Shown here in pieces: positions 155 to 51,292 of a stretch of 64,000 nt of DNA. The notes beneath the pieces are model-generated. The model worked only from the letters and a program-made list of their open reading frames with translations. It had not been told where the DNA came from and did no database searches. This stretch comes from Utricularia gibba (taxonomy: Eukaryota > Streptophyta > Magnoliopsida > Lamiales > Lentibulariaceae). The stretch's first letter is position 1. Each line of letters starts with the position of its first letter. The position numbers and the translations under genes were made by a program. The stretch covers positions 558,001 through 622,000 of the forward strand of contig NEEC01000007.1 in NCBI GenBank assembly GCA_002189035.1, written 5' to 3'.

Positions 155-2618
155 TCACAAACCAGGGAGAAGCTGATTATAACCGAGGCGGCCAATGTGT
201 AGCCTAGCGAGAGTGCCAACAAGGGGAGCATTGTTGTAAGTAGCTGGCTCAGTTTGCTCGAAGTTATCTCTGGCGTCCACAAAGTTGTCATACTCATCAG
301 GCCCCCGACAAGAGCGCCCGTGAGTAAATTGGGATCACTGCCTTTTCTGGTATACCAAGTGGCGTAGCCTCCCCTGCAGCTTATGAATGAAGGGTTCACT
401 TTGTATGAAACAATGGAAGAACCCCTGTGGTGAACTTGTCTCGGATAGTTGTTGCCGTAACCAACCATGTAACTCGTTGCTCGTGGATTGTCTCCCAGAA
501 TGTAGTCCACCTGAAGAATAACCAGCATTAACAATGGAATCAGCACTCTTCAGAAACAAAGATATGCACAATTTGATATTTTCTACATCCAAACGAAGAG
601 AAGGAACTACTCTCTAATCACCTGGGATTTGGCAAAGTTGAGAAGCTCGGCAGGGGAAACTATGCCGGAGGCGCATCTGAGATACCTCCTAGCGGAAGTG
701 AGGTAATCGGAGTAAACCGTCATGAGAAATGAGGCCGCAGTAACGAACTGCATATTGTTCCATCTCTGCCGGAAAATAAGCCCCCAGGGGTTCTCCTAGC
801 ATTCTGGTAACCCTTCCCCAAACAAGAACACATAAAAAACTCGGCCTTTTGTTGGTACCTCCAAAACACTGGTCTATACCAGCCGCCTTTTCCGGCCATC
901 AACAACTACAGAAACAAGAACCCGAAATCAGAAATCAACACAAGATCAATCAAATCTCGTAACCCAAGACTTGCGCTCCTCCAGAAAGTCACCTTTGCGA
1001 CAAGGGTCTGAACCCCTGCATATTTGACATCCCATCCAAATTCAGTCATCGCCCATCTCGTACCGCCGAGGGAATCCCCGTTTCTCCCGAGATAATTGAG
1101 GTAGTATTGATTGTTCGTTGCCTTGTAAAGCCACGCAGCCGCCCATAGCAGCTCATCCTGAATTTTTTTCAATTTCAAGACAGCGATCCAATTGGGAAAA
1201 ACAGCAAAAACACCACATTTCCTCTACACGATCAACAAACCCCACACTTACATCATAACCACTCACGGATCGGTAGTACTTCTGGGCGATGGTTATGCTG
1301 CTGTCGTATTTGCCTCTGTACTTGTCCGCAAAGTCGAAAAGCTGTCAAACATATGAAAGAAACATGGCCAAAGGCGTCAAAGGGCAATTCGGGAATAAAT
1401 TCTGAGATGCAATTGCACGTGACACGGCCCACTGCACCGAACCCAGATCTACGGCTCAGATCCCCCCGCAGTGCGCGTTCTGTTCCCGTGAAGCATGTTC
1501 CCATCCACCCCCCGCCACCCGATTTTACCTAATATTTTATATTCTAAATTAAATTATAATTACAAGATTATTACTTAATCCCAAATTCCTGATGCAATTA
1601 GACAGGAACGTCGCTGTTAGGGCAAAAAGCGTAACATCCAGCCACCAACCTTCCTGTCCAAAAGCTGAACTCAGTGTAACTGCTTGCTAACGTGCGCCCC
1701 CCCGGCCACTAACATGCACATTCCCGACCACCATCTCAATAATACACCCCCATCCCAGTCACGGACCATGCTCGCATTCATGACGAAGGCTTATTATGTC
1801 TTGTTACGTGCATTTCTCGCTGGTAATGATAGCTATTACCTGGTAAGCATGCCTGAGGAGCAACGCCGAGTACCGGGGATTGTAGCGGCGGAAGACGATG
1901 GATGCGGCGGCCATGGCTGCGGCGGTCTCTCCGGCGAGATCGGAACCCGGGTGGCTGGGATCGATTTTATAGGCGGCTCGGGATGTGGTCATGTCCTCCG
2001 GCCTTTGCCAACAATAGTGGTCCGTATTACCGTCACCCACCTGCAAAACAAAGTAGATGAGCACGAATTGGGCTTGTGCGAGACGGGTGTATACTACGGC
2101 GGCTCAATTGAGAACCACCGGCTCGATGCTACTTACTTCTCCGTAGAGAACATAAGGCTGGGGGTGCGCTTTGATGAGATAATCTGTTCCCCATTTGACA
2201 GCCTCAATGGCATGCCCAAGTTCCCCGGAGACCCCCAGCTGTTTCCCGTACTCGATAATACTCCACGACATCATCGTAATCGTGAACGCCATCGGTAACC
2301 CGAATTTCACGTTGTCGCCGGCGTCGTAGTACCCTCCCACCAGATCCACCTTCACAGTCAGAAACCAAATTAAAAAAAAAGAAGAAGAAGAAGAAGCAGA
2401 AACTAGAGAGTAATTCAATTCGAAATTACCCCATTGAGTCTCCCGTCGTGGAGCCCAGAATTCCCCCGCCATTGCACTCTCTGGTTCCACGGCAGGAACC
2501 CGGATCTCTGCGCCTCGAAGAACAAAATGCTTTTACTGAGAGCCTGCGCGTAGTCGTGGGCGGCGAATGCAAGGGGAAAAATCACGGCGGCAAGAACAAG
2601 AAACACGAGTTTCCCCAT
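155..2618 (-). CDS. Endoglucanase, glycosyl hydrolase family 9 (cellulase), two apparent frameshifts
   Basis: Secreted endo-beta-1,4-glucanase of plant GH9 class B, acting on cell-wall glucans. Seven exons on the minus strand: 2430-2618, 2137-2349, 1840-2040, 1252-1341, 993-1157, 622-905, 155-510, about 499 aa once two missing bases are allowed for. The start at 2618 opens a signal peptide (about residues 1-19). Seen: [11 protein letters not shown] at about residue 70, [31 protein letters not shown], the first GH9 signature [17 protein letters not shown], and the second signature around [19 protein letters not shown] with the catalytic acidic residues. No membrane anchor or CBM49 tail follows the stop. 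The frame breaks near 776-780 and near 301-306; each is repaired by one extra base. Family and fold are certain; whether the frameshifts are real is not. Confidence 0.93.
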
Positions 2619-4202
2619 CTGATTTCCAGGAACTGGTAATTTCGTTCCCGGAGGGAAAGAGAATGGAGCGACGGGGAGCAGGCACCGGACGCCGGAATTT
2701 ATGCAATGGGACTGGACAGAGCGCAGGAGTGTAATTAATAGACGCACATTCGCTTTAATTTTTTTAAATTTATTTTCTTGTTTTATATATACTTTTTCTA
2801 TGAAAAAAAAATCTGAAAAAGTATTTAATCATCGATGATGAAATCCGCAGGGTCAGGGGGCATGTGCCGCCTTGAAATAGTGAAATAATTTATTTATAAA
2901 ATATTTAAAAATTAGAAATGCACACCAACTCTCTTAACCCAAAGTTTCATAATTTAATTTATTTAATAATACATTTAAATTATTTGTCACAAACATCCAT
3001 CATTTACGCATATATTGTAGAACTCATCTATCAAATATGATCCTAATTTTTAGAGAACGAGCGTAAAATTATTTTTTTTAAAGTGATTCTATTTAATTTT
3101 TATAGAATACAATAATATTTAGTTATATATAAAAATTAAAAAATACAAATTACAAGATTAATTTTAGTAATTAATTAAAAATTAAATATATTATATTATT
3201 ACAGGTGTGGAGGGGCTGCCGACACCCCTCACGCACCCTCCTAATTCGTCCAGCTTTCACACGCGTACAAATCCAATCTCCACCGACGCCACACGAGTTA
3301 ATTGCACTCACGGGCCCCCTCCACGTGCTCTGCCTTTCCAAATCATTTTATTATCATTATCATCATTATTATTATTATTATTACAAAAACCCAATATATA
3401 TTTTTTCAATATTGTGAGAAATAACAAGTATTTATTCTGATTTCTGCGTTATGTAATACCCATTGGGCCTAGATGGGTCCAAGCCCATGGAGGCCCAGAA
3501 ACATTGTTGAAACCATTCCACAACGGTCTGCATTTCGTCGATACTATTCATTTCCAGCATCAGATTCGTTCCAATATAAATATATGATTAAATCGAAAAA
3601 TAAATTATAATTTTTATTCTTATATAATTACAAATTATTAAATGTAATTTAAATTTTATAAAAAGAGTTTAAATCAAATCTCACAGGTTTTATTAAGCAT
3701 GGGCCCCATCCACCACATGGTGGCGGTAGATGTCCACGTGGAAATTCGGTATATACAGTTAATTAGAAAATATTTTTTTTATTATTCGCTGTCTGAAGAG
3801 AAGCTGGTCGGTCAATGGTTAGTTCATCTGTTGACTTGAATAATTCAGAAGACTGACGACACGGGTTCCATTTTGGAACATGACTGCCCCTTCTTTTGAT
3901 GACCGTTTGGGGTCAAAATCGAATGTATGAGATTTTTGTGGGGTAGATTTGTAAAATTGGTTTTTATTTTTTAGAAAGTTTTTTTAATTTTATTTTTCTG
4001 CTTTTTGAAATTTGAGTTGGGGAAGACGACCGACTGGAGGGGCGTAGTTGTTGAACGGAAGCTGAGACTGGGTTATAAGATGGGAAAAGGAGAAGAATTA
4101 CGCGCCTTGATGAGTTCAATTCAATGTCAACTCTCCCTTATTCTCACCACCAACAAGTTTCTTCTCTTTTCGATCCCCAACGGGAAGACAAACTCCCGGA
4201 AA
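2619..4202. other. Intergenic stretch between divergent genes
   Basis: AT-rich DNA between the endoglucanase and the receptor kinase, which are transcribed away from each other, so it should hold both promoters. Short open frames near 3205-3440 are low-complexity and resemble nothing known. No repeat or RNA gene seen. Confidence 0.6.
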
Positions 4203-49900: not shown

Positions 49901-51292
49901 GGTCGCTTCTACCTCCAATGACGTAAACTGAATCTCCTACAATGGAACAAGTATGTCCTAATCGTGGAGATGGTGGCCCTGCATTAGATATTATCTCAAC
50001 AGTCTGAGAATCTATATCAACAAGCAAAAGCTCATTTCTGCGAGCATGTCTCCCGATGCCTCCAAAGCCACCAAAAATGACAATCTGCTTCTCATTCAAC
50101 GCACACGCTGAATGCCCCCATAATGACAGTCTCTCAATATGTTCATCATCTAACTTAAAAGAAGACAGATGAACACAATCCTCTTCAAACATTCCTGCCA
50201 ATGCTTCAAATATACAACTTCAGGCCACAAAAATGGAAATGATCCTGCAGTAATACTCACATAAGCACGCACACACACACACACTGTAAGATAACTTCAG
50301 TAAATCGAATTCAAGATACAGAATGTTCATGCTTTGACAACTGTACGGGAAGACATAGCACCAAGAACTTACAAAATCAAAAAGTGATCAAGGAACAATT
50401 TCAAATAGCCGAAATGAATGAGACTCCCAACTTGAGATCAAGGATGAAAGAACTCGCTTTCTAAGTTATTTTCACTTGCCATCGGTTTGATCTTCTCGGA
50501 GAGTGCCTTCGTACTTCGTATTTGTCTCATGAACTCCGATCTCATTCTTCACAGAATCTTCAAAGCATTCCACTTTTTTCACTTCAAGAAATGCGTCACC
50601 AGCCTTGCTACACTTTTTCCCATCGACAGCAACCCCATGTCCATTAAATTCACTAGTTATCAGCTTTTGATGCAAAAGATCAGTTCTTTTCCTATTAGCA
50701 GCCATTTTCTCATTCGCCAACTCCGCAAGATATTCAACGTACTCTGGAGAAACCATAAGCTTTCTCCTTGTCCCAAGCGGTACCTCCAGTCTTATTGAGC
50801 ACCGGATTGCAATGATCACTCTCTTGCTCACGCTAGTAATGCCACTTTCCCTAAACCCGCATGATATAGCCATGGAGACCAACCACTGAGCGGATTCTAC
50901 ATTTTCGCACTCCACCGCAATAATCAACGGCTCAAACCTGAACACAACAGTATCAGAAACGCAGGACTCGGTATCAGAGTCAGCTCCTGTGGTAGACTCC
51001 CCTGGTCATTAAAAAGAAGAGCTGATAGCGCAGAAGGCTGAACAGGGTCATGTGAGACATAGAGCCAGAATCCACCCGCGGCTTTTTTCTTCACCGCCGA
51101 CGCAGTAGCGGCGGGTTGAGAGAGGATAGAAATGCGACCCGAGCAGGAGCTAGTGGTGAAGTAAGATGGATTAGAATTGATGGAATTCAGGAGAGGGATG
51201 ATGGGCTCGTCCAGATTGCCTTTCGGAGAATTATCCGGCGCCGGCGAACTCATGGAAGCGATCGCCGCCGCCTTTCTCCTCCGAAACTCCAT
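46988..51292 (-). CDS. tRNA wybutosine-synthesising fusion protein TYW2/3/4, two apparent frameshifts
   Basis: Multi-domain enzyme for wybutosine at position 37 of tRNA-Phe. Nine exons: 50480-51292, 49810-50194, 48379-49532, 48140-48269, 47778-48013, 47526-47661, 47360-47436, 47162-47268, 46988-47091, about 1047 aa. Exon 1 is a TYW3 methyltransferase domain (DEPIIPLLNSINSNPSYFTT, SCSGRISILSQP, FRFEPLIIAVEC, VIIAIRCSIRLEVPLG). Exons 2-3 are Kelch repeats as in TYW4 (IVIFGGFGGIGRHARRNE, YVYGG, FYVFGGHNGEKALNDLYSFD). Exons 3-9 are TYW2, the aminocarboxypropyl transferase, with YAKFGKDILKNFGWLDLGRK, VDLFAGIGYFVLPF, YACEWNSEAVKALRLN and VLEGDNRDTAP. The TYW4 methyltransferase part is absent, as in the plant fusion. 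Intron 1 (50195-50479) needs a GC donor. The frame is lost at 51004-51005 and 48809-48812. Confidence 0.95.

Follow-up and report, generated by a model that had tools for sequence, protein, structure and literature searches.

Single-base losses in short G/C runs best explain eleven frame breaks in a Utricularia gibba assembly

Introduction

Single-base deletions in homopolymers have been described for bacterial long-read assemblies. In Quiver-polished PacBio HGAP contigs (a 2.9-Mb chromosome plus plasmids), 561 such deletions were identified with Illumina reads, according to the extract of that report (PMC4888979). In nanopore assemblies, false deletions dominate, occur in homopolymers of two to eight bases and break genes, and A/T runs carry about twice the errors of G/C runs (Kastor, PMC12007338). 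Frameshifted reading frames are likewise found in unitary and duplicated pseudogenes. The carnivorous plant Utricularia gibba has been assembled with HGAP (N50 3.4 Mb, 581 contigs; PMC5793159), and its assembly includes the 6.8-Mb Unitig_8 (PMC8333044).

We analysed a window of 64,000 nucleotides (G000:C213:558001-622000) in a U. gibba assembly of 100.09 Mb and 516 contigs. As in the Quiver-polished bacterial contigs, its assembled genes lack single bases in homopolymers, but the density of losses in the window is several times higher; the G/C share of the bacterial deletions is absent from the extract of PMC4888979. The prevalence of deletions and the broken genes recall the nanopore assemblies, whereas nearly all sites identified here are in G/C runs. 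With unitary and duplicated pseudogenes the window shares frameshifted reading frames, but it differs from them in lacking mixed lesions at its breaks and in having kept its codon-position constraint.

Results

Three-frame translations with masked stops were scanned against Pfam. All eleven frame breaks proposed in the initial annotation were confirmed by Pfam frames, three-frame reading and paralog comparison. The net change is -1 in 11 of 11 and +1 in 0 of 11, and by frame reading the next codon start modulo 3 equals 2 at every transition. The breaks are carried by seven genes, not six as first counted (positions are those of the window):

301-306, minus strand: GH9 (endoglucanase) gene, second break; C run of five, net -1; Pfam PF00759 switches frame at 301-340; paralog on C413 has one base more.
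776-785, minus strand: GH9 gene, first break; GCCCCC with one G or one C missing, net -1; PF00759 switches frame at 765-795; paralog on C413 has one base more.
5204-5209, plus strand: S-locus-type receptor kinase gene; G run of six, net -1; B_lectin and S_locus_glycop share a frame and PAN_2 follows in the next one; three-frame reading.
11158-11172, minus strand: C2H2 gene; CC/GG near 11158-11160, net -1, beside an in-frame 6-base difference; 88% identical C508 paralog open across.
32668-32670, plus strand: HD-Zip IV gene, first break; C run of three, net -1; PDF2_C begins in the new frame; three-frame reading; paralogs on C413 and C4.
33326-33331, plus strand: HD-Zip IV gene, second break; CCC of CCCTCC, net -1; PDF2_C switches frame; three-frame reading; paralogs have one base more.
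35375-35377, plus strand: HSP70-16-like gene; C run of three near the end of exon 1, net -1; HSP70 match ends at model position 380 at ~35387, and family-like sequence continues in the next frame.
43593-43598, minus strand: S40 gene, second break; G run of six, net -1; PF04520 switches frame; C508 copy has one base more; open to the stop with N at both S40 sites.
43682-43685, minus strand: S40 gene, first break; CGGG against CGGGG in the C508 copy, net -1; PF04520 frames; open to the stop with N.
48809-48812, minus strand: TYW fusion gene, kelch/TYW2 boundary; four-base C run (plus strand), net -1; three-frame reading and flanking domains.
51000-51005, minus strand: TYW3 part of the fusion gene; four-base G/C run beside 51004, net -1; PF02676 residues 2-94 and 101-209 in adjacent frames ~20 nt apart; three-frame reading.

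Single-frame Pfam matches switch frame directly in the GH9 gene (twice), the receptor kinase, the HD-Zip IV gene (START/PDF2_C), S40 and TYW3. Three-frame reading is the basis for the HSP70-16, second TYW and C2H2 sites, joined in the case of C2H2 by the paralog, and it also settled the HD-Zip sites. In base-level alignments with paralogs, one base is missing at both GH9, both S40 and both HD-Zip sites and at the C2H2 site; at both GH9 sites and at S40 43593-43598 its place within or beside the run is not unique. The C2H2 break is real and net -1, but it lies at ~11158-11160 and not at 11166 as first proposed; an in-frame length difference of 6 bases accounts separately for the gap at 11168. 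One-base repair, as had been suggested, restores S40: with an N inserted at each of its two sites, the gene has a single frame open as far as the stop. Around the other sites, three-frame reading revealed no extra in-frame stops, and the sites themselves hold no mixture of insertions, deletions and in-frame stops, only net -1 changes.

The losses had initially been ascribed mostly to C/G or T runs. Ten of the eleven are in G/C runs, with assembled lengths of 3, 3, 3, 3, 4, 4, 5, 5, 6 and 6; the eleventh is at a CC/GG pair, and neither T runs nor A runs are hit at all. Runs were counted in hand-delimited, approximate coding segments (12.9 kb from broken and 3.3 kb from intact genes). In these segments, and with the small numbers involved, breaks fall at 4 of 242 assembled G/C runs of length 3 (1.7%), 2 of 69 of length 4 (2.9%), 2 of 16 of length 5 (12.5%) and 2 of 2 of length 6 (100%). 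The break rate climbs with run length, the pattern expected of an under-calling consensus. Among the A/T runs of the broken genes, 35 of which are at least five bases long, breaks occur at 0 of 352, and, judged against the runs that the same exons contain, the confinement of all ten run sites to G/C has P = 0.0002. A literature search for G/C-specific PacBio deletions found no such paper. The common sign of the eleven changes, although real, is weaker evidence than had been claimed: if real small indels comprised deletions and insertions at 2:1 or 3:1, 11 of 11 would have P = 0.012 or 0.042, and because real decay also favours deletions, the sign is not decisive alone.

The claim that the other genes of the window are intact holds for the four that were checked (HSA32/ComA, FMN reductase, DUF3537 and PPR), a check that covered open reading frames with a Pfam match. 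Frame changes in the DUF3537, PPR and HSA32 genes look like introns; in the DUF3537 gene, an apparent GC-AG intron of ~86 bases lies at 60275-60365. The window also contains short AT-rich or diverged repeats at 46420-46750, 16186-16435 and 3070-3200, which have many genome copies of 70-78% identity, no Rfam match and no clear terminal inverted repeats.

Differences between the broken genes and their paralogs are concentrated at third codon positions. By codon position 1/2/3 they number 27/13/101 and 21/15/123 for HD-Zip, 21/19/58 for S40, 23/24/105 for GH9 and 31/14/94 for C2H2, in pairwise counts that hence include the paralog's branch. In all four genes the third-position excess continues past the breaks in the resumed frame, for example with 2/1/26 after the second HD-Zip break and 2/1/18 after the last S40 break; the last GH9 segment shows it least (5/11/15). 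An inverted homoeologous segment of window positions 7879-44423, 74-88% identical, lies at C508:83-99 kb (L002, L036, L037). The S40 copy on C508 was considered as an intact reference and rejected for frame changes of its own, and it is still usable at the two window sites. Two separate single-base losses at G/C runs elsewhere in the gene apparently account best for its frame change.

The same error is found elsewhere in the genome. We surveyed same-strand, abutting family matches by coordinates only, for HSP70, GRAS and BAHD plus four UDPGT matches (all matches together 118 kb; UDPGT contributed few usable pairs). The length change is exactly -1 in 15 breaks and exactly +1 in none, and the fuzzier cases are also mostly net -1. 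Nearly all survey breaks that were read at the sequence level proved to be losses in G/C runs. They include GGGG and CCCC in cytosolic HSP70 genes on C451 and C496, and G or C runs in BAHD and GRAS genes. Three GRAS paralogs (L073, L074, L076) have lost a base in the same conserved C run, which encodes a GGPP motif, two further GRAS genes (L075, L077) break close to this run, and a GRAS gene with net +1 has two separate single losses. The 9-kb flanks of the window each hold one -1 in a G/C run, in a RING gene on the left and a JmjC gene on the right. P450 and tubulin genes, judged by eye outside the scripted survey, have no clear -1 break. The losses are thus spread genome-wide and independently of gene function, as seen in HSP70, GRAS and BAHD genes on many contigs and in both flanks.

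Break density is ~0.7 per coding kb in the window (11 in ~16 kb of delimited coding segments) and ~0.12 exact -1 changes per kb in the sampled families, the latter a minimum, since breaks outside a matched domain escape detection. This value of at least 0.12 per kb is comparable to that of the Quiver-polished bacterial contigs, 0.18 per kb (561 in ~3.2 Mb; PMC4888979). The window exceeds the genome sample several-fold, for which a local dip in read depth is our simplest guess.

Three loci were found to be assembled twice (C241/C304, C316/C412 and C376/C413; L014/L015, L086/L087, L090/L091), with C241, C316 and C376 as small, redundant contigs. In two of the three pairs, gene copies at loci other than the eleven sites differ by loss of a base in a G/C run, and the frame is broken in the shorter copy. 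Over 6 kb, C316 matches C412 at 99.6% identity. The pair is separated by 4 substitutions and 11 gaps; every gap is in the small contig, and three fall within G or C runs. A GRAS gene that is open over 615 aa in C412 is split into 229 and 412 aa in C316. In the 1.9 kb compared between C376 and C413, the differences are one substitution and two indels of a single base. Of the indels, one (G4 in C376 against G5 in C413) cuts the frame of a P450 gene from 372 to 341 aa in C376; the other affects a T run, of which C413 has the shorter version. The pair C241/C304 (3.4 kb, five substitutions, one A-run difference) is uninformative. Such duplicate contigs could conceivably be allelic or recently duplicated copies, but the one-sided gaps in C316 are not expected of these. 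Among the candidates scored, no duplicate contig extends over any of the eleven sites.

Discussion

Our results indicate that the eleven frame breaks are almost certainly errors of the assembled consensus, each with one base missing in or beside a short G/C run, in genes that are otherwise intact. They are to be regarded as sequencing artefacts and not as dead genes because the same error recurs across the genome. An artefact had already been proposed in the initial annotation, and it is supported here by like losses in unrelated families, on other contigs and in the flanks, by run lengths at duplicate loci and by the codon constraint that has been kept. The proposal is amended in two respects: the effect is specific to G/C runs, and sign alone is insufficient.

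The dependence on run length, the single sign and the genome-wide spread together point to an under-calling long-read consensus. Homopolymer length would be under-called in a consensus unpolished with accurate short reads, and the one base dropped per site would make an intact gene read as frameshifted; losses of this kind are reported for unpolished PacBio consensus. A likely origin is the HGAP/Quiver PacBio assembly of U. gibba, with the platform itself inferred. Accurate reads would, we infer, show longer runs at the eleven sites. Some observations weigh against this reading: the losses are unevenly distributed, with a window density several times that of the sampled families and no clear case in P450 or tubulin genes, and their restriction to G/C contrasts with the nanopore error profile, where A/T runs prevail.

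Real pseudogenization, in which the deletions are true mutations and seven genes decay, for instance in the wake of a whole-genome duplication, is very unlikely. It would fit the presence of C2H2 and S40 copies on the homoeologous segment, and the preference of real small indels for deletions makes the common sign weak evidence against it. At least one BAHD gene elsewhere (L085) looks truly broken by a loss of ~16 bases, and C304 and C241 share one HSP70 -1 (L015, ~1510) that lies outside a clear run; because of these two cases, some true decay probably exists in the genome. Decay of the seven genes, however, would not explain the restriction to G/C runs (P ~0.0002), the strong third-position bias past the breaks, an S40 frame that runs uninterrupted to its stop once N is placed at each site, or the lack of extra in-frame stops seen around the others. 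Moreover, the same losses affect highly conserved cytosolic HSP70s, and duplicate contigs of one locus differ.

It is more improbable still that introns or alternative splice junctions were mistaken for frameshifts at some of the breaks. Introns do explain the DUF3537, PPR and HSA32 cases and one GRAS gene on C4, but at the breaks the two frames meet or overlap inside a few tens of bases, which leaves no room for an intron, and at most sites the paralogs are collinear through them.

Programmed frameshifting or transcriptional slippage, by which shorter runs that are real and functional would be restored to frame at expression, is hardly credible. The C run that has lost a base in three GRAS paralogs bears a superficial likeness to a conserved shift site, yet the frame stays open through this stretch in many other GRAS members. 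A G/C run is all that the sites in unrelated genes have in common, and run length varies between duplicate contigs of one locus. Programmed frameshifting at a common GRAS break was rejected on reading the runs, with the C4 member having an intron and the C244 member two separate losses; neither a slippery site common to a family nor its conserved use was found across the sites and GRAS members. Equally far-fetched is a genome in which shortened G/C runs would truly sit in working genes, with transcription or translation slippage restoring their frames genome-wide.

Consensus error thus remains the preferred reading of the eleven breaks, and it has consequences for the use of this assembly. Gene-loss counts, pseudogene lists and claims of a "conserved frameshift" drawn from it would be inflated. 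The C run of the GRAS GGPP motif is a clear trap, as three paralogs appear to share a frameshift there. The artefact is an ordinary one, and so is the biology that underlies it.
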